Of a stretch of DNA of 48,277 nt, positions 9,957 through 38,184 are shown piece by piece. The first letter of the stretch is position 1. Each line of letters opens with the position of its first letter. A program made the position numbers and the translations under genes. The notes under the pieces were generated by a model, which saw only the letters and a list, made by a program, of their open reading frames with translations, was not told the origin of the DNA and did not search any database. Source of the stretch: a virus; IMG/VR virus record IMGVR_UViG_3300005262_000092, positions 1 through 48,277 of that record. One strand, 5' to 3'.

Positions 9957-10138
9957 TGCACGATCCCGCCCATCCCGACACGATCAGGCTCGTCGACGCA
10001 AGGCTGGAGGTGGCGCTGCTCACGGCGCGCAGCAGCGCGCTCGGCATGCCGTCATCGGTCGAGACGCTGCGGGCGATGCTGGCACGGGCAGGGCTTGCAC
10101 TGGTGCCGGTGACAAAGTCTGAGGGCGCAGCCCGATGA
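9956..10138 (+). CDS. Small hypothetical protein, 60 aa
   Basis: A 60-residue helical protein (RLVDARLEVALLTARSSALG). No family seen. The 4-base overlap with the ParB-like gene suggests coupled expression. Confidence 0.65.
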   Translation: MHDPAHPDTIRLVDARLEVALLTARSSALGMPSSVETLRAMLARAGLALVPVTKSEGAAR

Positions 10139-11355
10139 GCACGCTCCGCACCATCGATCCGGCGCCATACCTCTCGCGCATCCCTCGCGGTCCGAAGCCC
10201 GACGCCGGCGATCGGCCTGAGCTGCAGTGGCTCAAGATCGCCAAGCTGCGTATCGACCCGCGCTACCAGCGCGAGATCGGCCGCCGTGGCGCCGACAACA
10301 TCGTCGCGATTGTGCCCCAGTTCAAATGGGCCAAATTCACACCCGTGGTGGTGGCGCCGATCGGCGAGGGCCTGTTCGCCATCATCGACGGCCAGCACCG
10401 CACCACGGCGGCTGCCGCGTGCGGCTTCGAGTCCGTGCCTTGTGTCATTATCCAGGTCGACCACGCCGACCAGGCGGACGCCTTCGTCGCGATCAACGCC
10501 AACGTCACGGTGATGTCGCCGCTGCAGATCCACGCCGCACGTCTCGCCGCCGGCGACAAGTCCGCCGACGAGCTGACGCAGGCTTGTGCCGAGGCGGGCG
10601 TCACCATCTGCCGTTACCCGGTGCCGGCCAGCAAGATGAAGCCCGGCGACACGCTGGCGGTCGGGATGCTGCATGCGACGTTGAAGAAGTACGGCCGCGA
10701 CGTCTTGGTCGCCGCCCTCTGCTGCATCACCAGGACCCGCCGCGGCAATGCCGGCATGATCCGCAAGGCGATCGTCCAGGCCCTGTGCTCCGTCCTCGAG
10801 GCCGAGCCTGGTTGGCTGGCCGATCGAGCGAAGCTCATCTTCGCGATGCAGACCTTCGACTTCGCGGCTCAGTTTACCGCGGCCTCCGCGCGCTCAATCG
10901 AGAGCGGCGATAGCGTTTCGAGCACGCTGGTCGAGGCCATCGCGGCCCATCTCGACGACAAGGTCGAGGCGGAGCCGCCCGCGGTCGCCCCGCCAGCCCC
11001 GGCGGCCGCGAAGTCACCGCCGGCGCCGAAAGCAGCACCCGCCGCGCCGGCTGCACCGCCCAAGGCCGCGCGCCGCGGCGTGCTCACCATCGGGCCCGCG
11101 GAGGTCAGCGCCAACGGCCGGCGCCTCCGCATCGCCCCGCGCGCCTCCCTGTTGCTACAGATGCTCGACAAGGCCAAGCCGAACAATGTCGGCGACGAAT
11201 GGCTGGTCCAGAAGCTGTGGAGCACGGGCCGCCCCTCCAACGCGGTCGACCTCATCGACCAGATCATTCGCGGGCTCAATGAGGGCCTGAAAGACCTCGG
11301 CTTTGAGATCCGCACCCATCGCGGTGTCGGCCGGCAGTTGGTGGAGGTGGCATGA
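10135..11355 (+). CDS. ParB-like nuclease domain fused to OmpR-type winged helix
   Basis: A 406-residue two-domain protein. Residues ~30-130 are a ParB/sulfiredoxin fold with the active-site motif IIDGQHRTTAA (DGQHR at 85-89). A helical middle (130-270) and an Ala/Pro-rich linker (~275-312) follow. Residues ~312-406 look like the C-terminal winged helix of OmpR/PhoB regulators (LTIGPAEVSANGRRLRI, DEWLVQKLW, IIRGLNEGL, IRTHRGVGRQLVEV). ParB folds bind CTP or cleave DNA, and the winged helix would provide sequence-specific binding. The arrangement suggests a DNA-binding regulator or partition-like factor. No receiver domain is present. Confidence 0.85.
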   Translation: MSTLRTIDPAPYLSRIPRGPKPDAGDRPELQWLKIAKLRIDPRYQREIGRRGADNIVAIVPQFKWAKFTPVVVAPIGEGLFAIIDGQHRTTAAAACGFESVPCVIIQVDHADQADAFVAINANVTVMSPLQIHAARLAAGDKSADELTQACAEAGVTICRYPVPASKMKPGDTLAVGMLHATLKKYGRDVLVAALCCITRTRRGNAGMIRKAIVQALCSVLEAEPGWLADRAKLIFAMQTFDFAAQFTAASARSIESGDSVSSTLVEAIAAHLDDKVEAEPPAVAPPAPAAAKSPPAPKAAPAAPAAPPKAARRGVLTIGPAEVSANGRRLRIAPRASLLLQMLDKAKPNNVGDEWLVQKLWSTGRPSNAVDLIDQIIRGLNEGLKDLGFEIRTHRGVGRQLVEVA

Positions 11356-14341: not shown

Positions 14342-16183
14342 ATGGATATCAAGGTCCCGCTGAAGATGCTCAAGTTCGGCCACGAAGACGGCGAGGGGAT
14401 CAATGCCCGCGTCGCCGGCCGGGAAGACGGCATCGCCGCACTTGCGGCCAACATCTTCGCCAACGGCCAGATCGAGAACCTCGTCGTCAAGGATGCCGGC
14501 GGCGGCTTTTTCGCTGTAGCGAATGGCAACCGGCGCCTTGCCGCCTTTCACATGATTCACGGTAAGAATTCCGATCAGCCGATCGGCTGCACGCTGCACG
14601 AGGTCGATGCGGCCAAGGCTTTTGAATATTCGCTCGCGACCGCGATCACGGCCGAGCAGCTCCATCCGGTCGACCAATATGAAGCCTTCGCCAAGCTGAA
14701 GGAGCGCGGCCAGTCAGAAGAAGAGATCGCAGCGCACTACGGCATGTCGGTCAAGTACATCCGACAGCGGCTTGCGATGGGCGAACTGTCACCAGCGATC
14801 CGTCAAGCATGGCGCGCCGGAGAATTCGACGAGGAGGCCGCCCAGGCGTTTACGCTGGCGTCCGACCACGCCCAGCAAGAGAAAGTGCTCGAAAAGCTGC
14901 GCAAGGACGTGGCCGAGCAGAGCTGGGGCGATGGCAAGATCGACGCCGACGAGGTCGAGGACGAGCTCAAGGTTGATCCGAACAGCGTCGGCTATCTCCT
15001 CCGGTTTGTGGGGACCGAGGCCTACGAGGCGAAGAAAGGCAAGATCATCACGCGCGATCTGTTCGGTCACCGACACAAGGTCTCCGACGAAAAGCTGTTG
15101 AAGAAGCTCGCCGACGACAAGCTCGAGGAAGCCTGCAAGCAGCTGAAGAGCGAGGGCTGGTCGTTCGCGACGATCGGGCGCCCGAACAATTACTGGGACT
15201 ACGGCACCACCAAGATCGAGCCGGCGCCGACCTCGGAGGAGGCGGCGCGGATCGAGCATCTCGAAGCGATCATCGGCGACGACAACAGCCTTCTCTCGTC
15301 TGAGATGACCATTGACCAGGTCAGCGCCTATTCCGAGCTTCAGACGATCGACAAGGCCATTCTCGATCGAGCCTATACGGTCGAGATGCGCGCTAAGAGC
15401 GGCTGCTGGGTCGACATCGACCACAACGGCGCACTGAAGGTCGAGTATGGCAAGATCAAGCCGAAGGAGAAGGCTGCCGCCGCTGCCGTCGAGCGCACCG
15501 AGCGCAAGAAGGCAGCATCCAACCAGGCGGCGGCTGAAGCTAAGCCGGCGCCGGCATCAAAGGTGATCTCGAATGCGCTTCGCCAGCGTCTCGAAGCCCA
15601 GTTGATCACCGCTACGCGCGATGCGATCGCCGGAGATCCGCTGCTTGCAGAATCGCCCTTCGCCGAAGTCATGGCCAAGACGATCTGCGGGATGATCACG
15701 CCCGATCGCGCGTTCTCGATGCCAGACGGCGTGCGCACCAAGTTGCCCTCGATCCGGCAGGCGCTCGATCAGAACGTTTTCAATGCCGCGATGGCAAAAC
15801 GCTTCGACGCGCAGGACTACTTCTCCAATGCGCCGAAGCCGCTGGTGCTCAAAGCCATCAGCGAGGCGATCAATCCGGATGAGGCCCGAAGGCTGACGAG
15901 CAAGACGAAGGTCGACGTCTGGAAATGGGCGCTGGACAATCTTGCGAAGACTGGTTGGCTGCCGAAGGAGCTGCGAACAGTCCATTACCGCGGGCCCGGG
16001 TCCGATGGCTACAAGAAGCCGGCGGGCGACGAGGCAAAACCTGAGGTCCCAACGGCGATGCGCGACGCATTGTCGAAGGCCGAGACTGCACTGAAGCCAC
16101 TGAAGCGCGCGGCGGCCGCGCGGAAGAAGGTCGCAAAGGCGGCCGCCAAGAAGCCCGCCAAAAAGCCGGCGAAGAAGAAGTAG
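14342..16183 (+). CDS. ParB/RepB/Spo0J-family protein with basic tail
   Basis: A 613-residue ParB-family protein. The N-terminal ParB fold includes NGNRRLAA (61-68), matching the GERRLRAA-type motif. A helix-turn-helix follows at ~127-155 (EEEIAAHYGMSVKYIRQRLA). The middle (200-420) is an unassigned helical extension. The last ~25 residues are Lys/Ala/Pro repeats like histone H1 (AKKPAKKPAKKK), expected to bind DNA nonspecifically. No ParA is visible, so plasmid-type partition is unlikely. Such proteins in phages are candidates for replication or transcription control. It is the second ParB-fold protein in this operon. Confidence 0.85.
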   Translation: MDIKVPLKMLKFGHEDGEGINARVAGREDGIAALAANIFANGQIENLVVKDAGGGFFAVANGNRRLAAFHMIHGKNSDQPIGCTLHEVDAAKAFEYSLATAITAEQLHPVDQYEAFAKLKERGQSEEEIAAHYGMSVKYIRQRLAMGELSPAIRQAWRAGEFDEEAAQAFTLASDHAQQEKVLEKLRKDVAEQSWGDGKIDADEVEDELKVDPNSVGYLLRFVGTEAYEAKKGKIITRDLFGHRHKVSDEKLLKKLADDKLEEACKQLKSEGWSFATIGRPNNYWDYGTTKIEPAPTSEEAARIEHLEAIIGDDNSLLSSEMTIDQVSAYSELQTIDKAILDRAYTVEMRAKSGCWVDIDHNGALKVEYGKIKPKEKAAAAAVERTERKKAASNQAAAEAKPAPASKVISNALRQRLEAQLITATRDAIAGDPLLAESPFAEVMAKTICGMITPDRAFSMPDGVRTKLPSIRQALDQNVFNAAMAKRFDAQDYFSNAPKPLVLKAISEAINPDEARRLTSKTKVDVWKWALDNLAKTGWLPKELRTVHYRGPGSDGYKKPAGDEAKPEVPTAMRDALSKAETALKPLKRAAAARKKVAKAAAKKPAKKPAKKK

Positions 16184-22288: not shown

Positions 22289-22951
22289 ATGAAGCCGATC
22301 GCGGACGAGCTGGAAAAGCTCTCGCCGGAGGTGCGCGCCGAACTAGCGAAGCCGTTCGAGCCGCGTGATCCACGCCATGCGGAGATCGTCGCCGGTAAGG
22401 ACGCGAGGTGGTACGTCGTCGAGGTGTTCGCCTCTGAGCAGGTTGCGGTTGCCAATGCTCTCGCCGAACATCGCTTTGGCGTCTACGTCCCGGAGGTCGA
22501 AGAGGAGATCATCCGGCGCGGCCGCAAGGTCGAGCGTCGCGTGCCGATGTTCTCCGGCTATCTGTTTGTGTTTATGTGGTACAGCGACGCGCACTGGCAG
22601 TGCATCAGCAGCCTTCCTGGCGTGGTCGAGATCGTCGGCGCTTTGCCTGATGCCGAGATCGACGTCGTGCGCGAGATGGAGAATTCGAAGCGCCCGGTGA
22701 TCATCGATATCGAACCGGAGCTGGAGCCCGAACCCGAGCCGGTGAAAGCGAAGTCGAAGAAAAAGCGGCGATGGAAAAACCGCAAGGGCGCGAAGGCGAA
22801 GGCCAAAGCAGCTAAGCCGAAGGTGATCACCGAGGCCGACCTGCGAGCGCAGATCATAACTACCCGTGCATGGTCAGCCTTCGATGACGTACTACAGCTT
22901 GACAGCGAAGGACGGAATCAGACCTTGATGCGCGCCTTGGGACTGTCCTAG
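22289..22951 (+). CDS. NusG-like protein, NGN domain with basic tail
   Basis: A 220-residue protein. Residues ~45-125 match the NusG N-terminal (NGN) domain: WYVVEVFASEQVAVANALAE, FGVYVPEV, RVPMFSGYLFVFM, then LPGVVEIVG. A Lys-rich segment (~152-175) and a short tail replace the KOW domain expected in NusG. NGN domains bind RNA polymerase and suppress pausing or termination. Position just before two strong hairpins and the late operon suggests a Q-like late antiterminator (inference). GGAG lies 9 bases before the ATG. Confidence 0.85.
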   Translation: MKPIADELEKLSPEVRAELAKPFEPRDPRHAEIVAGKDARWYVVEVFASEQVAVANALAEHRFGVYVPEVEEEIIRRGRKVERRVPMFSGYLFVFMWYSDAHWQCISSLPGVVEIVGALPDAEIDVVREMENSKRPVIIDIEPELEPEPEPVKAKSKKKRRWKNRKGAKAKAKAAKPKVITEADLRAQIITTRAWSAFDDVLQLDSEGRNQTLMRALGLS

Positions 22952-27054: not shown

Positions 27055-28199
27055 GGTACATGAACATCATCATGGCCTGCGCGGCCGAGCCGTGGGCCCT
27101 CGAGAAGGGCAAGCTTGTCAGCGTCGCGAACTTCCTGAAGTTCAAGGCCGCCGGCGGGCAGTATTCGGCCGAGGAGGTTGCCCGCGTGACGCAGAAGCGT
27201 GCGCGCGAGGTTACCAAGGCGGAAGGCTCCGTCGCTGTGCTGCCGATCAATGGTGTGATCGGCGAGCGGATGAACCTGTTCGATGACATCAGCGGCGGCA
27301 CGTCCAGCGAGCTGATCGGCAAGCAGATGAGCTCGCTGCTCAACGACACGTCCGTGAAGGCCATCGTCGCGCGGATCAATAGCCCGGGTGGTGTGGCGCG
27401 CAGCATCCAGGAGCTCGGCGACGACATCTACAACGCCCGCGGCATCAAGCCGATGGTCGCCGTGATCGACACCTGCGCGGCGAGTGCGGCTTATTGGCTG
27501 GCAACCCAGTTCGACGAGGTCATCGTCACGCCCTCCGGCCAGGCCGGCTCGATCGGCGTCTACACCATCCACGAGGACATCTCCGAGATGCTCGCCAAGG
27601 AAGGTATCAAGGAGACCCTGATCTATTCCGGCGAGTACAAGGTGATGGGCAACAGCTTCGAGCCGCTCGGCGACGAGGCGAAGTCCAAGATGCAGCAGAA
27701 CGTCGACGAGCTCGCCGCCGTCTTCGTGCGCGACGTCGCCCGCGGCCGCGGCGTCAGCCTCTCCGAGGTCAACGACCGGTTCGGCCGGGGCATGATGTTC
27801 AACGCAGATGAGCTGATCGAGCGCGGCATGGTCGATACGATCGCGACCTTCGCCGACACGCTTGAACGCTTTGGCGTTCAGACCAACCCCGCGCTCTCGC
27901 GCGCCAAGGCCGGCGCCCAGGCAAGTCTGCCAGAGAGCGGCGCGACCACATTGAAGCGGCTGGAAGACTGGGGGCGACGCGTGAGCGCCGCCGAGGTCCC
28001 GCCGCCGTCCGAGTTCGACGATATCCTGCGTGACGTAGGTATCTCGAAGAGCCAGCGTTCACGCATCGCCTCGCGCGTGCACGCGGCACTCCGGAGTGAG
28101 TCCGGAGGTGATGAAGAGGTGAATGAACCATCTGCCGTCGAGACCGCGCTGGCCGAGTTGCGCCAGCGAGCCGAAGGCTTCGTCATCCCCAAGCTTTAA
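27051..28199 (+). CDS. Prohead protease, S49/SppA family
   Basis: A 382-residue serine protease of the ClpP/SppA clan, used as head-maturation protease in many HK97-like phages. The Ser-Lys dyad is visible as S145 (DTCAASAAYW) and K197 (GEYKVMGN), 52 residues apart as in SppA. Upstream blocks INGVIGER and INSPGGVARS are the substrate-binding strands. The C-terminal ~90 residues are a low-complexity tail that may act as scaffold or delta-like region. It should remove the N-terminal region of the capsid protein encoded next. Confidence 0.93.
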   Translation: MRYMNIIMACAAEPWALEKGKLVSVANFLKFKAAGGQYSAEEVARVTQKRAREVTKAEGSVAVLPINGVIGERMNLFDDISGGTSSELIGKQMSSLLNDTSVKAIVARINSPGGVARSIQELGDDIYNARGIKPMVAVIDTCAASAAYWLATQFDEVIVTPSGQAGSIGVYTIHEDISEMLAKEGIKETLIYSGEYKVMGNSFEPLGDEAKSKMQQNVDELAAVFVRDVARGRGVSLSEVNDRFGRGMMFNADELIERGMVDTIATFADTLERFGVQTNPALSRAKAGAQASLPESGATTLKRLEDWGRRVSAAEVPPPSEFDDILRDVGISKSQRSRIASRVHAALRSESGGDEEVNEPSAVETALAELRQRAEGFVIPKL

Positions 28200-28218
28200 C
28201 TCCCCAAGGAGAACATCT

Positions 28219-29574
28219 ATGAAGCGTTACGTTTTCGCGGCGGCAATCGCCTTCGCGGTGGTCGCCCTCGCGGCCGTCCTAACGACGCATGGCGTCGTCG
28301 GCGATCATTCCCTCATTGTCGCCATGGCCGGCACCGCCGCCGTGTCGGCCGACGATCTCAAGGCCCTCACAACCCAGCTGACGACGATCGAGAAGTCGAT
28401 GGCGCAGGCTGCCGATGATGTGAAGAAAAACGGCGAGACCATGCAGACCGAGATCAAGAATCTCGGCAAGGCCACGTCCGAGACGACCGAAAAGGTCGAC
28501 AAGGCCCTGAGCCAGCATGGCGAGCTCGCAGGCAAGCATGGCGAGGTCGCCGCGCGCGTGACCGAGATCGAGCAGAAGCTCGCGGCGCGTCGCTCGGAGC
28601 AGGAGCCGGCGGGCCAGAAGTCCATGGGCGAGCGCTTCGTCGAAAGCGCCGAGTACAAGGGCTTCAAGGGCAAGGGCGCCGTCCGCGTCGAGATGAACCG
28701 CGCGGATATCACCAGCGTCACCGGCACCGTCGGCAACAACACCTCGCCCGCCAACTCGCTGGTCGGTTCGATGCGCATTCCGACCATTGTTGCGCCCCCC
28801 GAGCGCCGGCTCACGATCCGCGATCTGATCGCGCCGGGCGAGACCGATCAGGGCAACGTCGAGTATCCGCAGGAGACCGGCTTCACCAACAACGCGGCCG
28901 TTGTCACCGAGGGTGCGACAAAGCCGAAGTCCGATCTCACCTTCGAACTGAAGAACGCGCCGGTTCGCACCATCGCGCATATCTTCAAGGCCTCGCGTCA
29001 GATCCTCGACGATGCCAAGCAGCTCCGTTCCTATATCGACGCCCGGGCCCGTTACGGACTGCGGTTGTCGGAGGAGGCAGAACTGCTCAACGGTGACGGC
29101 ACCGGCGTGCATTTGAAGGGGTTGGTGCCGAGCGCCAGCAACTTCGATGCGGCCTTCACCCCAGCGAACCAGACCAACATCGACGTGATCCGTCTGGCGA
29201 TCCTGCAGGTGTTCCTGGCCAACTTCCCGCCGAACGGCATCGTGCTACATCCGACCGACTGGGCGAAGATCCAGCTCACCAAGGACGGCCAGCAGCGCTA
29301 CATCATCGGCAATCCGCAGGACGGCAACACCCCGCGCCTGTGGAATCTGCCGGTCGTGGAGTCGCAGTCGATGACCTACACCGAGTTCCTGGTTGGCGCC
29401 TTCGACCTCGGCGCGCAGATCTTCGATCGCATGGAGATCGAGGTGTTGCTGTCGACCGAGAACGTCGACGACTTCGAGAAGAACATGGTGACGCTGCGCG
29501 CCGAAGAGCGCCTGGCGCTCGCCATCTATCGTCCGGAGTCGTTCGTTCACGGCGACTTCGACACCGCGACCTGA
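28219..29574 (+). CDS. Major capsid protein (HK97 fold)
   Basis: A 451-residue HK97-type capsid protein. Residues ~46-125 are a coiled-coil delta/scaffold region (LKALTTQLTTIEKSMAQ onward). The shell domain begins near 135 and contains typical blocks (RIPTIVAPPERRLTIRDLI, VEYPQETGFTNNAAVV, LRSYIDARARYGLRL, EEAELLNGDGTG). The start is fixed by a perfect AGGAG 8 bases upstream of ATG 28219. Oddly, the first ~25 residues look like a signal peptide or membrane anchor (RYVFAAAIAFAVVALAAVL). The S49 protease encoded upstream probably removes it with the delta region. Confidence 0.95.
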   Translation: MKRYVFAAAIAFAVVALAAVLTTHGVVGDHSLIVAMAGTAAVSADDLKALTTQLTTIEKSMAQAADDVKKNGETMQTEIKNLGKATSETTEKVDKALSQHGELAGKHGEVAARVTEIEQKLAARRSEQEPAGQKSMGERFVESAEYKGFKGKGAVRVEMNRADITSVTGTVGNNTSPANSLVGSMRIPTIVAPPERRLTIRDLIAPGETDQGNVEYPQETGFTNNAAVVTEGATKPKSDLTFELKNAPVRTIAHIFKASRQILDDAKQLRSYIDARARYGLRLSEEAELLNGDGTGVHLKGLVPSASNFDAAFTPANQTNIDVIRLAILQVFLANFPPNGIVLHPTDWAKIQLTKDGQQRYIIGNPQDGNTPRLWNLPVVESQSMTYTEFLVGAFDLGAQIFDRMEIEVLLSTENVDDFEKNMVTLRAEERLALAIYRPESFVHGDFDTAT

Positions 29575-29640: not shown

Positions 29641-29964
29641 ATGCTGATCAGGATGAAGTCGCTGAAGCCTTTCGGCGTCGCCGGCGTCAACGAAGGCCAC
29701 GTCAAGCGTGGCCGGGAGTTTTCCGTCGGCAGCGATCATCGCCGCCGTGAGCTCGAGGCCCACGGGCTGGCCTATCGCCTCGATCAGCCCGCCGGTGCCG
29801 GTTCGCCGCTTTCGTCTGCCGTCGAGAATGAGGCCGCCGATCTCGGCCCTTTCGTTTCAGCTGGTGGCGGGACTGGCGCGGCGGGGCCTGCGCCATCATC
29901 GCCTCAGGGCCGTCGGCGGCGATCGCGCCGATCGGACGGCTCCAAGGACGGCTTCCTGCCTTAG
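29641..29964 (+). CDS. Small protein downstream of capsid gene
   Basis: A 107-residue protein. The first ~55 residues look folded (KSLKPFGVAGVNEGHVKRGR, EFSVGSDHRRRELEAHGLAY), a pattern seen in small SH3-like phage head proteins. The rest is an Ala/Gly/Pro/Ser-rich basic tail. ATG 29641 has GAGG upstream; GTG 29626 is an alternative. Its frame contains the heptamer C CCT TTC at 29847, from which a -1 shift would enter the following glycosyltransferase-like frame. Confidence 0.75.
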   Translation: MLIRMKSLKPFGVAGVNEGHVKRGREFSVGSDHRRRELEAHGLAYRLDQPAGAGSPLSSAVENEAADLGPFVSAGGGTGAAGPAPSSPQGRRRRSRRSDGSKDGFLP

Positions 29965-30476
29965 CCATCAAGGAAAACGTCCGGCTCTGCCCATGGGCAG
30001 ACGTCGTCTACGGGTGCGACGGGCCATGGTGGAAGGCGAGGAAGGGGCTTCCCGACTATCACGGGGTCAAGCTCGCGCATGACAGCTCGGTGTGTGCGGC
30101 GTTCCACGATGTTCACAAAATCGAAGTCGCCGACGACGACCGGCTCCGTTTCGATGTGCCCGGGCTCGTCGGGTCCGGCGGGAATTCAGGGTTTCAGGCG
30201 CTCAATCTGGCAGTGCAATTCGGCGCCAGGCGTGTGCTGCTGATCGGCTTCGACATGCATGTGGGTGAGGGCGTGCACTGGTACGGGCGCAACACCTGGA
30301 GCGGGGCCAACAACCCTGCGATGAAGCATTTGATGCGCTGGCGGGACGCTTTTGCGACGCAGGCGCCGAAGCTGCGCCGGATGGGTGTCGAGGTGATCAA
30401 CGCCTCGAAGGACAGTGCGCTCCGGTGCTTCGATATTGCGAGCGTCGAGGCTGCGATCGACAGATGGGGTCTCTGA
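29832..30476 (+). CDS. Glycosyltransferase/MptE-like protein without a normal start codon
   Basis: The frame from an in-frame stop at 29829-29831 to 30476 encodes a clearly protein-like product: CAIIASGPSAAIAPI, IKENVRLCPWADVVYGCDGP, SGGNSGFQALNLAVQFGARR and VLLIGFDMH. It resembles phage proteins annotated as glycosyltransferase- or DUF115/MptE-like. No ATG, GTG or TTG occurs between the stop and the conserved ASGPS block; the first is GTG 30090, too far inside. Expression must use a rare start, a -1 frameshift from the upstream gene, or the gene is broken. The given start is the first open codon, not a start codon. Confidence 0.7.
   Translation, partial: GRRSRPFRFSWWRDWRGGACAIIASGPSAAIAPIGRLQGRLPALAIKENVRLCPWADVVYGCDGPWWKARKGLPDYHGVKLAHDSSVCAAFHDVHKIEVADDDRLRFDVPGLVGSGGNSGFQALNLAVQFGARRVLLIGFDMHVGEGVHWYGRNTWSGANNPAMKHLMRWRDAFATQAPKLRRMGVEVINASKDSALRCFDIASVEAAIDRWGL
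29847..29853 (+). other. Possible -1 slippery heptamer C CCT TTC
   Basis: In the frame of the upstream 107-aa gene the codons read ggC CCT TTC, a fit to X XXY YYZ. A -1 slip here leads directly into the glycosyltransferase-like frame, with no stop before 30476. It is only a candidate, because no stimulator structure was established. Confidence 0.35.
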
Positions 30477-31267
30477 TGGGACTGGGCGACAATCTGATGG
30501 CGACCGGGCTTGCCCGCGGCGCCGCCAGCCGCGGCAAGAAGATCGCCTTCGGAGATGGCCGCAAGATCATCTGGGACCGGAATAGCGCGCCCGTCTTCCA
30601 CAACAACCCGAACGTCGCCAAGCCCGGCAGCGAGACCCGGAAGCAGATCGAGTGGATCGACTTCTACATCGGTCATCGGCTGTACAATCGCCGGGTCGGC
30701 GAGCGCTGGGAGTGGAATTACGATTTCCGCGCCGTCCCCGGCGAGATGTTCTTCTCGCGCGCCGAGCGGGAGTTTGCGGGCAGAATTGCCACTGGCTTCG
30801 TGCTGATCGAGCCCAACGTGCCACAGTTCAAGTCTGTTGCGCCGAACAAGACCTGGCCGCTGGAGCGATATCAGGACGCTGCCGATCGACTTGTGAGGTC
30901 CGGCCACGCGGTCCGGCAGTTCGTCTACAAGGGCGGGCATCGCCTCGATCGGGTGAAGGGTATCGAGGCGCCGAATTTCCGGCATGCGCTCGCCGCGCTC
31001 TCGCGGGCGGCTCTCTACCTCGGGCCCGAGGGCGGGCTGCATCATGGTGCTGCCGCCGTGAACGTTCCGGGCGTCGTTCTGTTCGGAGGGTTCATCCCGC
31101 CGCAGGTGACGGGCTACGATAGCCACATCAACCTGACCGGGGGCGCCGAGGCCTGCGGATCGTTCAACCGCTGCCCGCACTGCGAAGCCGCCATGGCGGC
31201 GATTTCGGTCGACGAGGTTGAGGGCGCCTGCTCGTCCGTGCTGGCCCGCCAGAAGCTCGCGAGCTGA
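30476..31267 (+). CDS. Glycosyltransferase family 9-like protein
   Basis: A 263-residue protein. The C-terminal half has the nucleotide-sugar-binding pattern of heptosyltransferase-like GT-B enzymes: TWPLERYQDAADRLVRSG, HALAALSRAALYLGPEGGLH, HGAAAVNVPGVVLFGG. The N-terminus (MGLGDNLMATGLARGA) also fits the family start. It ends with a CPHC motif. TGATG coupling to the previous gene and a 1-base overlap with the next make it part of the cassette. It may add a sugar to virion protein or to an envelope glycan. Confidence 0.8.
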   Translation: MGLGDNLMATGLARGAASRGKKIAFGDGRKIIWDRNSAPVFHNNPNVAKPGSETRKQIEWIDFYIGHRLYNRRVGERWEWNYDFRAVPGEMFFSRAEREFAGRIATGFVLIEPNVPQFKSVAPNKTWPLERYQDAADRLVRSGHAVRQFVYKGGHRLDRVKGIEAPNFRHALAALSRAALYLGPEGGLHHGAAAVNVPGVVLFGGFIPPQVTGYDSHINLTGGAEACGSFNRCPHCEAAMAAISVDEVEGACSSVLARQKLAS

Positions 31268-32016
31268 TGTTGATCGCAGTCTATCTCGAGCCCGGTGTCA
31301 GCGGCACAGCCCCGAAATGGTCTCAGGCCTTCGCCAGGGGCTGCGGGGGCGAGTTGAAGTGCATGCGCCGTTTTGATGCGGGTCGGCCGTTTGCGTTCTG
31401 GGGGCAGCCGCAGCTGTGGCGGGAGTTTCTCGCGGCAAAGGGAACTGCCGGCACCTGGTTCTACGGCGACCACGCCTTCTTCGGCCGCGGCCGCTACTAC
31501 CGTTGTGCGAGAAACGCGTATCAGTTTGCGGGCGATGTCGGTGAAGATGATCCGGCCCGCTTTCGCCAGTTCGGTATCCCCGTTCGGGACTGGCGCGCCG
31601 GCGGTTCGCACATTTTGCTGTGCCCGAACTCGGAAACCTTCTTCGGCCTGCACGGCTTTGCGCCTGGCCAATGGCTCGCGGAGACGACGGCCCAGATCCG
31701 CCGGCACTCCGACCGGCCGATCAAGGTGAGATGGAAGTCTGATGCGGCCGATCGGCCGCTGGTTGAGGATCTGAAGGATTGCTGGGCGGTCGTGACGTTC
31801 ATGTCGAACGCCGCGGTGATGGGCATCCTCGCCGGGGTGCCCGCCTTCTGCACAGCCGCCTGCGCAGGCAGGACAATGGGGAGCGGCGATCTCGCCGCGA
31901 TCGAGCGGCCTGCGATGCCCGAGGGACGAGAACGATGGGCGGCCCGGTTGGCCAACCATCAATGGACACTGGATGAGATGCGCGCTGGCGCACTCTGGAA
32001 TGCGATCGGTGGATGA
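31267..32016 (+). CDS. Glycosyltransferase-like cassette protein
   Basis: A 249-residue protein of no certain family. Patterns suggest a GT-B-like Rossmann half: ILLCPNSETFFGLHG, then VVTFMSNAAVMGILAGVPAF, which resembles the donor-binding region of capsule or O-antigen transferases. The N-terminal part has AFWGQPQLWREFLAAKG and WFYGDHAFFGRGRYYRC. It is coupled on both sides. I infer a sugar-transfer function from fold and context. Confidence 0.65.
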   Translation: MLIAVYLEPGVSGTAPKWSQAFARGCGGELKCMRRFDAGRPFAFWGQPQLWREFLAAKGTAGTWFYGDHAFFGRGRYYRCARNAYQFAGDVGEDDPARFRQFGIPVRDWRAGGSHILLCPNSETFFGLHGFAPGQWLAETTAQIRRHSDRPIKVRWKSDAADRPLVEDLKDCWAVVTFMSNAAVMGILAGVPAFCTAACAGRTMGSGDLAAIERPAMPEGRERWAARLANHQWTLDEMRAGALWNAIGG

Positions 32017-32693
32017 TGCAGCAGCAGCTCGGTTGGTATTTTCCGGACGGCGAGACGCACCTGCCGGAATGGATGGCGAGGGTAGGTCAGACGCGCGACG
32101 GGCTGCTGCAGTATCAGTTCGCGAAGTACACGGCGGCGCTCAAATTCGTCCGCCCAGCCCGGAGAGTTGCCATCGATGTCGGCGCTCATATCGGACAGTG
32201 GTCGCGAAACATGGCTGCCGATTTCGATGTCGTGCACGCCTTCGAGCCGGTTCCGGACTACGCGGCATGCTGGCAGGCGAACGTGGGCCAGATGCCGAAC
32301 GCGTTGCTGCACCCCGTCGCGCTCGGCGCGCAGACCGATATCGTCTGCCTGAAATGCGGCACGCACGGTTCGCACGGCGACACGTTCGTCGCGCCGAAAG
32401 CTGACGCCGCCCTTGTCGCCTTCGACGTATCGATGCGGCCGTTGGACTCCTTCGACCTCGCCAATGTCGACTTCGTCAAGATCGATTGCGAGGGCTACGA
32501 GCTCTTCGTGCTTCAAGGCGGCGAGAAGACGATCCGGCAAAACCGGCCTTGCATTATCGTCGAGCAGAAGCCGGGCAAGGCGCAAACCTATGGCCTTGGT
32601 GAGACCGATGCCGTCAGCCTGCTGAAAAGCTGGGGCGCCAAAGTGCGCAAGGTCCTGTCGGGCGACTACATCCTGTCCTGGGATGCCGCGTGA
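32013..32693 (+). CDS. FkbM-family methyltransferase
   Basis: A 226-residue SAM-dependent methyltransferase of the FkbM group. Motif I is AIDVGAHIGQWSRNM, followed by VVHAFEPVPDYAACW and the late FkbM block VDFVKIDCEGYELFVLQGG. FkbM enzymes methylate hydroxyl groups on sugars or polyketides, so it may cap a sugar added by neighbouring transferases. 4-base overlaps on both sides. Confidence 0.88.
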   Translation: MMQQQLGWYFPDGETHLPEWMARVGQTRDGLLQYQFAKYTAALKFVRPARRVAIDVGAHIGQWSRNMAADFDVVHAFEPVPDYAACWQANVGQMPNALLHPVALGAQTDIVCLKCGTHGSHGDTFVAPKADAALVAFDVSMRPLDSFDLANVDFVKIDCEGYELFVLQGGEKTIRQNRPCIIVEQKPGKAQTYGLGETDAVSLLKSWGAKVRKVLSGDYILSWDAA

Positions 32694-33274
32694 CCCGTCA
32701 CGGCTGGTTCGAGATCGACGGCGTGCAGACCGGCGAGCGGAAGCTCAAGGAGCGCATCCGGGGCCTGGCGCCACTCCTTCCTGCTGCCAAGGGCGCTTCC
32801 GTGCTCGATCTCGGTTGTGCAGAAGGCTTGATCGGCAAGTGGCTCCTCGAGGCGGGCGGGGCGAATTCGCTGCTCGGTCTCGACAAGCACGAGCCATATC
32901 TGGAGACGGCGCGGGAAGTCTTCGGCGAGGATCCCCGGGCATCTTTCGCGGTGTGCGACTTCGACGATTTCGAGGCCTGGCTGACGGACCACCAGCTCGC
33001 CGGTCGCTACGAATTGGTGCTGGCCTTGAATATCATCCACAAGCTGGCGCGGCCGGCGCAGTTTCTGACGAGCATCGCCGGTCTTGCCGGAAAGATGCTC
33101 GCGATCGCATTGCCGGCGGACGTCATCAACGACGTACGCAGCGGCAATGCGCCGGTCGATCCGGTTGCAGAGCTGCGGGGCAAGTTCAGGCTGGTGTCGC
33201 GGTTCGAGGGCGCCCGGCATCCCAGGAAGGGCCACCTCGGCATCCGGATGATCTTCGAGCGGGTGGCGGCATGA
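32690..33274 (+). CDS. Class I SAM-dependent methyltransferase
   Basis: A 194-residue protein with motif I VLDLGCAEGLIGKWLLEAG, an acidic motif II (SLLGLDKHEPYLE) and FAVCDFDDFEAW. Like Ubi/Tam-type enzymes it may methylate small molecules or sugars. Last gene of the five-gene cassette; it overlaps the head-tail connector start by 4 bases, so it is expressed with the structural genes. Confidence 0.88.
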   Translation: MTRHGWFEIDGVQTGERKLKERIRGLAPLLPAAKGASVLDLGCAEGLIGKWLLEAGGANSLLGLDKHEPYLETAREVFGEDPRASFAVCDFDDFEAWLTDHQLAGRYELVLALNIIHKLARPAQFLTSIAGLAGKMLAIALPADVINDVRSGNAPVDPVAELRGKFRLVSRFEGARHPRKGHLGIRMIFERVAA

Positions 33275-33885
33275 ACCATTGGCACGCAGACTGCGACATG
33301 AGGCCGCCGGCGTCGGCGCTGTACCTGATCGATGCGCCGAGCTCGCCGGTGGTTTCACGCACAGAGATGAAGGCCCATCTGCGCGTCGACTACGACGACG
33401 ACAATCTTTTGATCGACTCGTTGACCGCCGCGGTCACGCAGCATCTCGACGGCAAGGACGGCATTCTTGGCCGGGCGCTGCAGGAGCAGAGCTGGGAATT
33501 GCGGATGAGTTTCTTTCCGCGATCGATCCGGTTGCCACTGCCTCCGCTGATCAGCGTGGATGCCGTGCAATATCTGGACTTAAGCGCGGCGCGCGTGACG
33601 ATCGACAAGTCGCGCTATGTGGTCACTGGCGAGCAGGGACGAGGGGTGATCAGTCTGGGGTCAGGCGCCGCCTGGCCGGCTCAGCTTTGCAACCATCCTG
33701 AAGCTGCGATCGTTTCGTTTACCTGCGGCTACGAAAAGGTGCCGGACCCGATCAAGGCAGCGATCAAGCTGATGGTCGCTACCCTGTACCAAAACCGCGA
33801 GCACGTGGTCGTGGGCCAGACCGCGATTGAATTGCCATGGGCGGCCGAGGCGCTGCTCAGGCCGTACATCGTGATCGGCGCCTGA
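33271..33885 (+). CDS. Head-tail connector protein (gp6-like)
   Basis: A 204-residue protein typical of the gp6/gp15 connector family: it begins with EMKAHLRVDYDDDNLLIDSL, a long-helix pattern repeated in the family, and ends with DPIKAAIKLMVATLYQNREH, then WAAEALLRPYIV. It forms the first ring below the portal. The N-terminal ~30 residues are an extension. Coupled to the methyltransferase gene by ATGA. Confidence 0.88.
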   Translation: MNHWHADCDMRPPASALYLIDAPSSPVVSRTEMKAHLRVDYDDDNLLIDSLTAAVTQHLDGKDGILGRALQEQSWELRMSFFPRSIRLPLPPLISVDAVQYLDLSAARVTIDKSRYVVTGEQGRGVISLGSGAAWPAQLCNHPEAAIVSFTCGYEKVPDPIKAAIKLMVATLYQNREHVVVGQTAIELPWAAEALLRPYIVIGA

Positions 33886-33944: not shown

Positions 33945-34382
33945 ATGGCGACATATACGAAATACGAGAATTTCGTTCAGGTTCTCGCCAACAAGGAAGT
34001 GGATGCCTTTGGCGCGACCGATACATGGAAGGCGGTCATCCACACCGACGCGCCGGTCGTTGCCACCGACACGACGTTGACCGACCTGACGCAGATCGGC
34101 GGCTCGAACGGCTACACCACCGGCGGCGCCAGCATCGCGTTCAACTCGACCAGGTCGGGCGGCACGGTGACTGCGACGTCGACCGATGTGGTCTGGACGG
34201 CATCGGGCGGCAATCTCGGCGGCTCGACCACGGGGCGTTACATCAGCTATTACGACGACACGCCGACCGCGCCGACTGCCGACCCGCTCGCGGCGTCGTG
34301 GGACTACGGCTCGACCTTCACGATCGCCGATGGCGAGACGCTGACGCTCGACTTCGGCGCCAGCCTGTTCACGCTGGCCTAA
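33945..34382 (+). CDS. Phage structural protein, probable decoration/tail-fibre-like
   Basis: A 145-residue Thr/Gly/Ala-rich protein with an alternating beta pattern (VTATSTDVVWTASGGN, GRYISYYDDT). Low charge and high Thr suggest a virion surface protein. AAAGGA lies upstream of the ATG. It is separated by 59 bases from the connector gene. I do not know the exact family; a head decoration protein is inferred. Confidence 0.75.
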   Translation: MATYTKYENFVQVLANKEVDAFGATDTWKAVIHTDAPVVATDTTLTDLTQIGGSNGYTTGGASIAFNSTRSGGTVTATSTDVVWTASGGNLGGSTTGRYISYYDDTPTAPTADPLAASWDYGSTFTIADGETLTLDFGASLFTLA

Positions 34383-34385
34383 GCC

Positions 34386-34781
34386 ATGAAGCCGCATTCC
34401 CTGCAATCCGTGCAGCGTACGCTGCCGTCCGCAAAGCAACGCTTCGAGGCGCTCGGCCCAATCGCCGCGCGTCATGGCCGCATCGAGAAGGGCGCGCAGT
34501 TGCCCGAAACGCGCGTGCTCGCTTGTCCGCGCGTCAAGGTCGCGGATTTTCCGGATGGATTTATCCCGACCAAATATTTCGAGGCGCTCGAGCAGAACCA
34601 GCTGATCAAGAGCTGCTGCCGGCATCCGGAAAATCACGAGATCGAGGCGCACAAATCGCATCCGGACGAGGAGGCGCCGGACATCTACATTTTCATCTGC
34701 GACGGCTGCGGCCGGAGGCATCGGCGCCTGATGCTCGGCGCCGTCGATGACGTGCCGCGTCCGATCTGGGATGCGAGCTAG
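34386..34781 (+). CDS. Small Cys/His-rich protein in structural module
   Basis: A 131-residue protein with a C-terminal zinc-ribbon-like set: CCRHPENHEIEAHKSH and FICDGCGRRHRR. The N-terminal half is basic. It is unusual among virion genes and lacks a clear family. It starts 3 bases after the preceding stop, so it is probably coupled. Confidence 0.7.
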   Translation: MKPHSLQSVQRTLPSAKQRFEALGPIAARHGRIEKGAQLPETRVLACPRVKVADFPDGFIPTKYFEALEQNQLIKSCCRHPENHEIEAHKSHPDEEAPDIYIFICDGCGRRHRRLMLGAVDDVPRPIWDAS

Positions 34782-34793
34782 GCCAAGCCGTCG

Positions 34794-36680
34794 ATGGCGT
34801 TGTCGCAGACACTGACGCAGCAGGGTGGCGCTACCACAGGTAGCGACACCTATACGGCTGCGGCGATCGGAACCGCGGCGGCCGGCCGCCTGGTGGTTGC
34901 GCTGGTCTCGCCCACCAACGCCGGCACGACCACGTCGGCGACGATCGGCGGCGTCTCTGCGACCTACACCAAAAACACCACGTTCGGCGCCGAGGTTGGC
35001 TTTGTCTCGGCAATCGTGCCGACGGGTACGACCGCCAATATCGTCCTCAACGGCTCCGGCGGCTTCTCGCTGCTCGGCGTCTGGGCCATCAGCGGCGGCG
35101 GTGCCGTCACGCCAACTGCAACTGCGGCTGACGCGACCGGAAGCGCTTCGCCGACGATCGCGGTCGGTGCCGGGGGCGTTGTCGTCGGCGCGGCATTCGA
35201 CGCGGCCGGCGCCGGTCCGGTCTCGTTCGGCTCCGGGCTCACGACTGAGGGCACGTCCTGGAGCTTCGGGCCGTCGCCTGGTCGCAACGGCGGCGCCGAT
35301 TTCGCCTCGGCGCAGACGGTGACCTGCGGCATCTCGGGCGCCACGTTCCCGGTCAGCCAGTTTGCGGCGTTCGGGCCTGGCGTTACGCCGAAGATCTTGA
35401 CCGCGGCCGGCGGCGGTTACGCGATTACGGGCACGGCGGCGACGATCAAGCGAGGTCGCAAGGTCCCGGCTGCAGTGGGTGCCTATGCGATCACCGGCGC
35501 AGCGGCCACCATCAAGCGCGGTCGCAAGCTGCCGGCCGCGGCGGGTGCTTACGCGATCGCCGGCGCCGCAGCGGCGCTGCTGCATGGTTTGAAGGTTTCG
35601 GCCGTGGCCGGATCCTACGCCTTGTCGGGGGCGGCCGCCACGCTGCGGCACGGCTTGCGTCTGCCGGCGAGCGCCGGCGCCTATGTGCTGGCGGGCGCGG
35701 ATGCTGGGCTGACGAAAACTTCGGTCAAGCTCCTGGCGGCCGGCGGCGGCGCGTATGCGATCGCCGGTACGGCGGGCAGCCTCAAGCGCGGCTGGAGGCT
35801 CGCCGCCAGCGCGGGCGGCTACGCACTCACGGGCGCCTCGGTCGGCCTCCGGCGCACATACGTGCTCGGCGCCTCCGCAGGCTCCTATGTCCTGGCCGGC
35901 AGCGCGGCTGGCGTTACGCGCGGCCGCAAGGTTGCGGCGCTTCCCGGGGCCTACACCCTGACCGGCAGCGACGTCGCGCTGCTGGTCGGGTCGAACAAGG
36001 TACTGGCCGCGGGCGCAGGTGCCTACAGCCTGACGGGCGCTGCCGCCACGCTGCGCCATGCCTGGCGTGTCCAGGCTGGCGCCGGATCTTACGTGCTGTC
36101 GGGTGCCTCGGCGTCGCTGAAGCACGGGTGGACGGTGGCGGCCGTCACCGGCGCTTACACGCTGATCGGCGCTGCGGCGACGTTGAGGCAGGCCCGGCGC
36201 CTGCCGGCGATCGGCAGCTCCTACGCTCTGGCTGGAAGTGCTGCGACGCTGACGAAGTCGACCACAAAGCAGCTCGCTGCCGGTGCCGGCGCCTATGCGC
36301 TGTCGGGAGTGTCCGCGACGCTGCGGCGAAGCACAAGGGTCGTCGCCGGCGCAACGTCCTATGTGCTGTCCGGCTCGGCCGCGAGCGTTCGCCGCAGCTT
36401 TCACCTGTCGGCGCCAGCTGGTGCCTATCTGCTCACCGGCGCGAATGCCGCGCCGCTGGTCGCGCGGCGCCTGGTGGCCACGCTGGGCGCCTATGCGCTG
36501 TCAGGCGCCGATGCCGGGTTGATCTGGAGCGGCGCGATATTCGAGGAGTCGGCGCGGGCTGTCATGGCCATGGGTGAGTTTCGCTTGGTCATCGTCGACG
36601 GCGAGCTCCGCGTGGTTGCGCCCGATGGATCTGCGCGCCTAGTGATGCCGCCCGGCGATGGCCGGTCGATCGACATCTAG
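34794..36680 (+). CDS. Large Ala/Gly/Ser repeat protein, probable virion surface protein
   Basis: A 628-residue protein. Residues 1-~195 are a beta-rich, low-charge domain (PTNAGTTTSATIGGVSATYT). Residues ~203-580 are seventeen tandem 22-residue repeats with consensus AGAYALTGAAATLRRGRKLPA. The C-terminal ~48 residues form a small domain (EFRLVIVDGELRVVAPDGSA). Similar low-complexity beta repeats occur in phage fibres and decoration proteins. Position between head-connector and tail-tube genes supports a virion role. It has almost no charged residues except the Arg/Lys at each repeat turn. Confidence 0.8.
   Translation: MALSQTLTQQGGATTGSDTYTAAAIGTAAAGRLVVALVSPTNAGTTTSATIGGVSATYTKNTTFGAEVGFVSAIVPTGTTANIVLNGSGGFSLLGVWAISGGGAVTPTATAADATGSASPTIAVGAGGVVVGAAFDAAGAGPVSFGSGLTTEGTSWSFGPSPGRNGGADFASAQTVTCGISGATFPVSQFAAFGPGVTPKILTAAGGGYAITGTAATIKRGRKVPAAVGAYAITGAAATIKRGRKLPAAAGAYAIAGAAAALLHGLKVSAVAGSYALSGAAATLRHGLRLPASAGAYVLAGADAGLTKTSVKLLAAGGGAYAIAGTAGSLKRGWRLAASAGGYALTGASVGLRRTYVLGASAGSYVLAGSAAGVTRGRKVAALPGAYTLTGSDVALLVGSNKVLAAGAGAYSLTGAAATLRHAWRVQAGAGSYVLSGASASLKHGWTVAAVTGAYTLIGAAATLRQARRLPAIGSSYALAGSAATLTKSTTKQLAAGAGAYALSGVSATLRRSTRVVAGATSYVLSGSAASVRRSFHLSAPAGAYLLTGANAAPLVARRLVATLGAYALSGADAGLIWSGAIFEESARAVMAMGEFRLVIVDGELRVVAPDGSARLVMPPGDGRSIDI
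35400..36533 (+). repeat. Seventeen 66-bp coding repeats (22 aa)
   Basis: In-frame tandem repeats in the 628-aa protein gene. Each has Gly-Ala/Ser-Tyr (GAY/GSY), a short hydrophobic strand (ALTG/VLSG), A-A-x-L and a basic turn. Three copies are 24 residues long (insertions near residues 309, 404 and 493). DNA copies have diverged, so the array is old or selected at protein level rather than freshly amplified. Confidence 0.85.
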
Positions 36681-36692
36681 GGGATTGGGGCA

Positions 36693-37016
36693 ATGCTGAC
36701 CTGGCCGCCGAAAGATCCGAACGAGGTTCTCGATTTCGACATCGACTGGACCATGCGGCTCTATTCCGCCGACGAGCTGGCACAGGTCGAGGCCGGTGCT
36801 ACGATCGTGCCGGCGGACGCGATCGCCAGCTCTCAATTCACGCTGCCTGACGGCGCCACGCTGGTCGCCAGCAGCTCGACCTATTCGGCGACGCGCACCA
36901 AGGTCTGGTTGCGCGATGGCGATGACGGGACGTCCTATGAGGTGCTCAACCGCATCACCACAACCGGCGGCCGCACGATGGACCAGTCGGTCAGGCTCAG
37001 GGTCAAGAGCAAGTGA
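36693..37016 (+). CDS. Small structural protein (phage fibre/tail adaptor-like)
   Basis: A 107-residue protein starting LTWPPKDPNEVLDFDIDWTM, a pattern I associate with short phage tail or fibre-adaptor proteins with WPxKDP starts. The rest is beta-rich (TKVWLRDGDDGTSYEVLNRI). ATG 36693 follows GGGG. It is probably a virion component next to the repeat protein. Confidence 0.7.
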   Translation: MLTWPPKDPNEVLDFDIDWTMRLYSADELAQVEAGATIVPADAIASSQFTLPDGATLVASSSTYSATRTKVWLRDGDDGTSYEVLNRITTTGGRTMDQSVRLRVKSK

Positions 37017-37119
37017 CGTGTCGATCGAGCGGCTGGTCGCGAACGCGCATCGGCGCCTGGCGCTGCGCCGCCTGCTGATCTCGATCGAACGAAATCCGTT
37101 AATCTTGGAGGCTATCGAC

Positions 37120-37434
37120 ATGGCGACCGGGCGAACCATCGCAAGGCCGATCAATCTGGCCGGATTCTCCGGCCATCTGCAGCGCGCCGAGAAACTGGAG
37201 CAGCGCCTCGGCGTCACCGGCGAGCGCTACGCCTCGGTGCTCGACGACATCGAGGATCAGGAAAAGGCGCTGGCCGAGCACGTTGGTTCGCTCGAGACCA
37301 CGCGCGCCAGCCTCGACCAGGTCATCAACCGGATGCAGCCGGGGAGCAATGGCGGCCCAAACGGTGGCGGGCAATCCTCGACCGCCTCGACCGTCACCGG
37401 CTCCGGCCAGGTCATTGACGGAAAAGCCGTCTGA
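37120..37434 (+). CDS. Coiled-coil protein, 104 aa
   Basis: Heptad-like helix at residues ~15-70 (LQRAEKLEQRLGVTGERYAS, VLDDIEDQEKALAEHVGSLE), then a Gly/Ser/Asn-rich tail. Start chosen at ATG 37120 because GGAGG lies 8 bases upstream. An in-frame GTG at 37018 would add 34 plausible residues but lacks a good ribosome-binding site. No family recognised. Possibly a scaffold or chaperone for the neighbouring virion proteins. Confidence 0.65.
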   Translation: MATGRTIARPINLAGFSGHLQRAEKLEQRLGVTGERYASVLDDIEDQEKALAEHVGSLETTRASLDQVINRMQPGSNGGPNGGGQSSTASTVTGSGQVIDGKAV

Positions 37435-37461
37435 TCTGCCGGATCGGGTGAGAGCACTGAC

Positions 37462-38184
37462 ATGAAGCAATCCGTCTGGATCGGCTGGGATCCCCGCGAG
37501 GCCGATGCTTATGCCGTCGCGCGGGCCTCGGCGCGCCGCCATATGACGCTGCCGCTGCAGACGCGGGGTGTTGTGCTGTCCGAGCTGCAGAGGGCCGGGC
37601 TCTACAGGCGGCCGATCGAGATGCGCGCGAGTGCCGCTGACAGGCCGATCATGTGGGACACCATCTCGGATGCTCCGATGTCGACGCAGCATGCCTGCGC
37701 GCGCTTCCTGGTGCCGCACCTGGCCCGAACGGGATGGGCGGTGTTCATGGACGGGGACGTGCTGGTCCGCGGCAATATCTGCCGCATGTTCGACAAGCTC
37801 GATCGGCGGAAGGCGGTCTATTGCGTCAAGCACCGCTTCGATCCGCCCGTCGGCGTCAAGATGGACGGCCAGCAGCAGACGCGCTACGCGCGGAAGAACT
37901 GGAGCTCGGTGGTCGCGTTCAACTGCGACCACGAGGCCAACCGTGCGCTGACGCTCGATCTCATCAACAGCGTCCCGGGGCGAGATCTGCATGCGTTCTG
38001 CTGGCTGGAAGACAGCCTGATTGGCGAACTGTCCCCGGAATGGAATTTCCTGGTCGGGCACACCGATCCCTCGGTCGAGCCGAAGATTGTCCACTTTACC
38101 GACGGCACGCCATCGATGCCGGGATATGAGCATGTGCCGTTTGCCGACGAATGGCGGGCCGAGCTGGAGCACTGGGCGGCATGA
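37462..38184 (+). CDS. GT-A glycosyltransferase (GT8-like)
   Basis: A 240-residue protein with a DxD metal/nucleotide-sugar motif (FMDGDVLVRGN, D97-G-D99), preceded by a family-like SVWIGWDPREADAY start and STQHACARFLVPHL. Later blocks WSSVVAFNCDHEAN and WNFLVGHTD are the acceptor side. It is a retaining-type GT-A transferase inserted between tail and head-closure genes. It overlaps the next gene by 4 bases, so it is made with virion proteins. The target may be a virion protein, e.g. the repeat protein encoded just upstream. Confidence 0.85.
   Translation: MKQSVWIGWDPREADAYAVARASARRHMTLPLQTRGVVLSELQRAGLYRRPIEMRASAADRPIMWDTISDAPMSTQHACARFLVPHLARTGWAVFMDGDVLVRGNICRMFDKLDRRKAVYCVKHRFDPPVGVKMDGQQQTRYARKNWSSVVAFNCDHEANRALTLDLINSVPGRDLHAFCWLEDSLIGELSPEWNFLVGHTDPSVEPKIVHFTDGTPSMPGYEHVPFADEWRAELEHWAA

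Follow-up and report, generated by a model that had tools for sequence, protein, structure and literature searches.

A putative -1 frameshift fusion of a small head protein to a sialyltransferase-fold enzyme at the start of a phage glycan-modification cassette

How can the first enzyme of a glycan-modification cassette be made when its gene has no start codon? This question is raised by the 48,277-base virus record IMGVR_UViG_3300005262_000092 (analysed in full and termed the window), in which five genes for putative glycan-modifying enzymes lie on the plus strand between the gene for an HK97-type major capsid protein (28123-29574, plus strand; PF05065, 2.6e-60; phrog_10, 8e-84) and that for a gp6-like/Ad1 head-tail connector (33271-33885, plus strand; PF05135, 1.5e-4; phrog_442, 1.7e-27). 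A preliminary description of this DNA had placed the five genes correctly and had them all joined to the virion genes by overlaps of 1-4 bases. This is true of the internal and 3′ junctions, where the successive overlaps read from the sequence (MptE-like, GT9, orfC, FkbM methyltransferase, class I methyltransferase, connector) are 1, 1, 4, 4, and 4 bases, such that the GT9 start overlaps the MptE-like stop by a single base and the class I methyltransferase gene has a 4-base overlap at both ends. It is not true of the 5′ end, where the first gene, encoding an MptE-like protein (phrog_4603, 1.3e-35), overlaps a small open reading frame (ORF) of the head module (29641-29964, plus strand; 107 residues in frame 0, designated smallX) by ~112 bases in the -1 frame. 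Programmed -1 frameshifting out of this small ORF is very probably the best explanation of the sequence.

The cassette had been taken to begin at position 29832, but this is the first base past an in-frame TGA and not a start. From there to the conserved motif AIIASGPS there is no in-frame ATG, GTG, TTG, CTG, ATT, ATC, or ATA, and the possibility that the MptE-like gene has an ordinary or a near-cognate start was rejected; both the missing start codon and the frameshift had been overlooked. Codons 69-71 of the small ORF are GGC CCT TTC, and a slip back by one base puts both tRNAs on CCC TTT, which is a canonical X_XXY_YYZ slip. The -1 frame (CCC TTT CGT) becomes readable exactly at this heptamer, C_CCT_TTC (29847-29853, plus strand), and the start-less gene then extends from 29853 to 30476. 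The transframe reading after the slip is ...LGPF-RFSWWRDWRGGACAIIASGPS..., and the predicted fusion is a protein of 278 residues (30.4 kDa) with residues 1-71 of the head protein as its N-terminus, compared with 107 residues (11.2 kDa) for the unshifted product. At the slippery site GGCCCTTT is invariant across eight aligned relatives. Hence the locus has both an overlapping, start-less -1 ORF and a conserved in-phase heptamer, as in programmed -1 frameshift genes.

Relatives were gathered from viral contigs, bacterial genomes, and annotated phages, giving 73 loci that are non-redundant at 90% DNA identity. A locus was termed start-less if it has no start 6-40 codons ahead of the AIIASGPS motif, which is the case for 31 of the 73, the other 42 being start-bearing. 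An in-phase slippery heptamer is found in 21 of the 31 start-less loci, where 1.9 are expected from background (binomial p about 1e-18), compared with 2 and 2 in the wrong-phase controls on the same loci and 4 in the 42 start-bearing loci. When the start-less set is clustered at 70, 60, and 50% protein identity, which omits L015 (phiNP) with its GTG 5 codons ahead of the motif, the heptamer is kept in 14/24 (p 1e-11), 7/15, and 4/5 representatives, respectively. The commonest heptamers are C_CCT_TTN and C_CCA_AAN. Codon choice at the site is also constrained: the frame-0 proline is CCT in 15 of 15 cases (background 13%; 5e-14 from codon usage, ignoring shared ancestry) and the -1-frame phenylalanine is TTT in 15 of 15 (background 23%; 2.5e-10 on the same basis), CCT and TTT being rare codons in these GC-rich genomes. 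Among eight relatives, identity in the -1 frame is 0.33 ahead of the site and climbs to 0.60 beyond it. In the phage annotated as S20, four in-frame -1 stops stand immediately ahead of CCC TTT, and a start upstream of the site is impossible because these stops close the -1 frame there.

Several of the imperfect sites retain CCCT followed by ACG, ACT, or TCT, and five start-less loci (L096, L080, L084, L089, and L063) have C_CCT_AC[GT] or T_TTT_ACG instead of the full heptamer. It is possible that such sites support a P-site-only -1 slippage in which only the P-site tRNA re-pairs. Natural fusions that join the small head protein to the transferase in frame were sought as well and rejected, as the long upstream extensions of start-bearing loci look like alternative-frame readings that overlie upstream, often collagen-like, genes. 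The S20 homolog is truncated in public annotation, and a D3-type transferase gene (758-1162 in L101, BK061477.1) is labelled "gp6-like head-tail connector" and annotated from an internal start, truncations that are as expected because the frame is start-less. The head module in the S20 record itself (NC_020840.1, "Tetraselmis viridis virus S20") is of the ordinary tailed-phage kind, and the alga named as its host may stand for a bacterium associated with that alga.

What is the protein to which the enzyme would be fused? No Pfam or NCBIfam identity was found for the small protein, nor for the orfC and GT8-like products described below; its gene is placed with head completion genes. The MptE-like gene has no start codon in the window or in any of L002, L003, and L010, and in these three relatives smallX homologs lie directly 3′ of the capsid gene. 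Cassette-free phages with related capsids have a short gene at the same place, encoding 57 residues in Sinorhizobium phage NV1.1.1 and 70 residues in Mesorhizobium phage P1, and phrog_2616 matches both of these proteins as well as the small proteins of the start-less loci L003, L071, and L095. The phrog_2616-related proteins of cassette-free phages have 57-77 residues, whereas the small protein of start-less loci is longer, its added tail overlapping the transferase.

The MptE-like protein is predicted to be a GT42 (CstII)-like transferase. Its AlphaFold2 model, made with 63 relatives, has a predicted local distance difference test (pLDDT) score of 96.7, and its six best PDB matches are all chains of CstII, the GT42 sialyltransferase of Campylobacter jejuni (best probability 1.00, E 1.4e-4; template modelling (TM) scores 0.51-0.61). 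CstII is thus the best solved-structure match, at a TM-score of 0.61 and 10% identity, the likeness being in predicted fold alone. A profile search against PDB sequences did not return CstII and gave no sequence relatives for either the MptE-like protein or orfC, while phrog_4603 carries the name only, and the match to the Pfam MptE-like/Maf family PF01973 is 13.8 bits (E 0.05) against a cut-off of 34.6. G16, D53, N115, G129, H139, and P152 are invariant. The second gene (30476-31267) encodes a GT9, heptosyltransferase-like enzyme (PF01075, 28.8 bits against a cut-off of 22, 9.6e-7; TIGR02193, 0.0014). The third, orfC (31267-32016), matches no sequence family, and its model (pLDDT 90.8) has a GT-B fold closest to KpsC and WbbB (KpsC: probability 1.00, E 1.1e-5, TM-score 0.47). 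These are followed by an FkbM-family methyltransferase (32013-32693; PF05050, 68.3 bits against 22.7, 1.2e-18; TIGR01444, 83 against 37.7, 2.7e-23) and a class I S-adenosylmethionine-dependent methyltransferase (32690-33274; PF08242, 2.3e-8), all on the plus strand, and no clear transmembrane segment is seen in any cassette enzyme (maximum KD19 1.9 or less). CstII uses cytidine monophosphate (CMP)-sialic acid, KpsC and WbbB are transferases of CMP-activated 3-deoxy-D-manno-octulosonic acid (Kdo), GT9 enzymes are heptosyltransferases, and CMP-ulosonic acids and heptose are precursors commonly present in Gram-negative cells. The CstII-like and KpsC-like folds together with GT9 point to a glycan built of CMP-ulosonic acids and heptose.

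All five genes described previously are present, yet the cassette is larger. In most relatives the second cassette gene encodes a GT8-like transferase (phrog_28018, with a DPREA motif and DGD), and by sequence this gene is found in the window displaced to 37462-38184 (plus strand), where it is ~60-68% identical to the MptE-following gene of relatives and matches 45 loci among them; it is the sixth member of the cassette. The preliminary description had also suggested a search for the same block in other phages, and it is found inside the virion module of many of them. The core order of MptE-like, GT8-like, GT9, and methyltransferase genes recurs in dozens of contigs next to genes for the portal, capsid, or connector, often accompanied by KpsC-like and FkbM genes. 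A collagen-like gene lies within 2.5 kb upstream of the MptE-like gene in 30 of 42 start-bearing loci versus 1 of 31 start-less loci (Fisher 1e-9), and the collagen-like repeat often ends close to the MptE-like gene in the former. The first enzyme thus has one of two kinds of link to a virion protein, a predicted frameshift fusion or a collagen-like neighbor. The PAJU2 homolog of the MptE-like protein carries the record label "structural protein".

Based on these comparisons, the following mechanism is proposed. During late expression most ribosomes would read the small head protein in frame 0, while a fraction would slip back one base at C_CCT_TTC and go on in the -1 frame, producing the fusion of 71 head-protein residues to the GT42 (CstII)-like transferase. 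Its head-protein portion would bring the enzyme to the capsid or neck of the assembling particle, where the enzyme would begin a glycan on a virion protein with a CMP-activated ulosonic acid. The co-translated GT9, KpsC-like, and GT8-like enzymes may lengthen this glycan, which would then be capped by the FkbM and class I methyltransferases. Once frameshifting is granted, glycosylation of the virion is a fairly probable function of the product, and the explanation as a whole, in which a -1 frameshift fusion delivers a transferase to the virion and a virion protein is given a methylated glycan of the ulosonic-acid/heptose type by the cassette enzymes, is held with somewhat better than even confidence. 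The earlier proposal that the cassette is expressed with, and acts on, virion proteins gains from the fusion, the collagen-like placement, and the recurrence in virion modules; glycosylated and O-methylated capsid or tail proteins would still be its best reading. Whether this represents a widespread and undescribed mechanism, in which a frameshift welds a sialyltransferase-fold enzyme to a head protein for delivery in cis at a fixed low copy while a second lineage puts the enzyme behind collagen-like head-fiber genes, is evenly balanced.

Each half of this mechanism has precedent. Extension of a head-module ORF by a -1 frameshift into a second, longer virion-related product has reportedly been found in the major head protein of Lactobacillus phage A2 and in gene 10A/10B of T7. 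Unlike these cases, in which the product is a structural variant of the capsid protein, the extended protein here is a small accessory head protein and the extension is predicted to be a full glycosyltransferase-fold domain of 200 residues. These frameshifted capsid proteins are cited in PMC10885494 and PMC5009743 (Garcia 2004 for A2 and Sipley 1991 for T7). Glycosylated virions are exemplified by the mycobacteriophages Che8 and Rita, which carry glycans on capsid and tail-tube subunits (Freeman 2023, as cited in PMC11256854 and PMC12619734). They resemble the window in having phage-encoded glycosyltransferases, putative ones here, but in their F1 relative Maravista the glycosyltransferase genes lie toward the 3′ end of the genome (PMC11256854), whereas those of the window are within the head module, together with two methyltransferase genes, and one transferase is predicted to be fused to a head protein. 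A distantly related domain is that of the Maf flagellin glycosyltransferases (PF01973), such as Maf1 of Aeromonas caviae, which was proposed to act in the cytoplasm and to transfer nonulosonic acid directly to Ser/Thr residues of a structural protein, and a fold link of Maf to CstII and thiamine pyrophosphokinase has been remarked upon (PMC3426422). The MptE-like protein differs in that its similarity is under the Pfam cut-off, there is no flagellin, and the phage domain has only about 200 residues. A further related system is that of phages D3 and PMG1, where orf6.5-orf7 occupy the same site between capsid and connector and share phrog_4603, the -1 overlap, and an in-phase C_CCA_AAG, with orf12 (GT9-like) and orf13 (methyltransferase) a few genes downstream. 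These phages have fewer cassette genes, which are split by connector genes, and BLASTP homology between the window GT9 and D3 orf12 is not significant. No precedent for a frameshift-fused phage glycosyltransferase combined with virion glycosylation was found in the literature searched, outside of which lie most subscription journals.

Several points weigh against the proposed mechanism. The shift itself, the fusion in or near the virion, the donor, the acceptor, and the glycan are all inferred. About ten start-less loci have no perfect heptamer, and in D3-like Pseudomonas phages a GTG/TTG ahead of C_CCA_AAG may serve as an ordinary start. A conserved stimulatory RNA structure was not demonstrated, with a mean z of -1.1 versus -0.64 in controls and covariation of about zero. 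Beyond the site, some conservation is seen in the other two frames too (0.45 and 0.57), as expected because this is overlapping, closely related DNA. The TM-scores are moderate (0.61 for CstII and 0.47 for KpsC), and several of the enzymes resemble those of the lipopolysaccharide (LPS) core or capsule, which would fit modification of the host surface too.

This last possibility is the most serious alternative. The fusion would then be real, but its sole role would be to keep the transferase at a low dose. The target would be the LPS core, O-antigen, or capsule of the host, and progeny would thereby avoid re-adsorbing to infected cells or debris. The GT9, KpsC-like, and GT42-like folds belong to enzymes of the LPS core or capsule that take ADP-heptose, CMP-Kdo, or CMP-nonulosonates as donors, and the phage is probably temperate, as the window has a tyrosine integrase gene (88-549, minus strand). 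However, the block is inside a late virion operon, with a 4-base overlap with the connector gene, and recurs in many unrelated head modules; its first enzyme either forms a predicted fusion with a head protein or lies behind a collagen-like virion gene; and it includes no flippase or membrane protein. Late alteration of host surface glycan, which the preliminary description had offered as the other option, is on this evidence the less likely one and, although the enzymes do resemble such transferases, has a fairly low probability. It is considerably less probable that there is no frameshifting and that the enzyme is made by re-initiation or from a non-canonical start, with CCCTTT an incidental codon pair. 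The loci with no perfect heptamer and the unproven stimulator would agree with this, but not the window, which lacks even a near-cognate start, nor S20, where stops reach the site, nor the enrichment of the heptamer in the correct phase only and the invariance of the rare CCT and TTT. That the cassette glycosylates the bases of phage DNA is highly improbable: glycosyltransferases that modify DNA are known in phages (Pyle 2024, as cited in PMC12619734), but the folds here are of the LPS, capsule, and sialic-acid type, and the genes are in a virion module with a predicted fusion to a head protein, although no search aimed at base-modification genes was made. A sequencing or assembly error that broke a single gene into the small ORF and the transferase, which the indel-like change of frame resembles, was rejected as next to impossible, as the -1 arrangement recurs in about 30 independent, non-redundant contigs and in the isolate genome of Mesorhizobium jarvisii (L095).

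If a virion protein is glycosylated, two genes in the window would encode candidate acceptors. They are among ~4.2 kb of inserted genes (33945-38184), comprising the Ser/Thr-rich, repeat, and GT8-like genes, that part the connector from the head closure gene (38151). The first (33945-34382, plus strand) encodes a 145-residue protein with 27% Ser+Thr, a homolog of which adjoins the cassette in L073 only, and is a candidate glycan acceptor on the virion. The second (34794-36680, plus strand) encodes a 628-residue protein inserted at the head-tail junction, a candidate acceptor or fiber, which has many degenerate Gly/Ala/Ser-rich repeats (GAYALTGAAATLRHG...), no family match, and weak homologs in L073, L039, and L040. 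In the capsid ORF, an early in-frame ATG near 28219 would give a hydrophobic, signal-like N-terminus (MKRYVFAAAIAFAVVALAAVLTTHG...), and the true start is probably internal, ahead of the coiled-coil delta region. Elsewhere in the window a gene for a NusG-like transcription factor (22289-22951; PF02357, 4e-16) lies just 5′ of the terminase region, with a similarly placed gene in Mesorhizobium phage P1, and the early region has two ParB-related genes (10135-11355 and 14342-16183; ParB_N weak, HTH_ParB 7e-8).

If the proposed mechanism is true, phages of Alphaproteobacteria, and probably the model phage D3 too, would encode a fusion protein that has stayed hidden because annotation pipelines miss or mis-start it, and an enzyme-bearing extension would join the short list of frameshifted head proteins. 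Phage glycosyltransferases would then be tied directly to virion assembly. The fusion also offers a specific test of whether phages of Gram-negative bacteria glycosylate their particles, a question that bears on adsorption, stability, and immune recognition.

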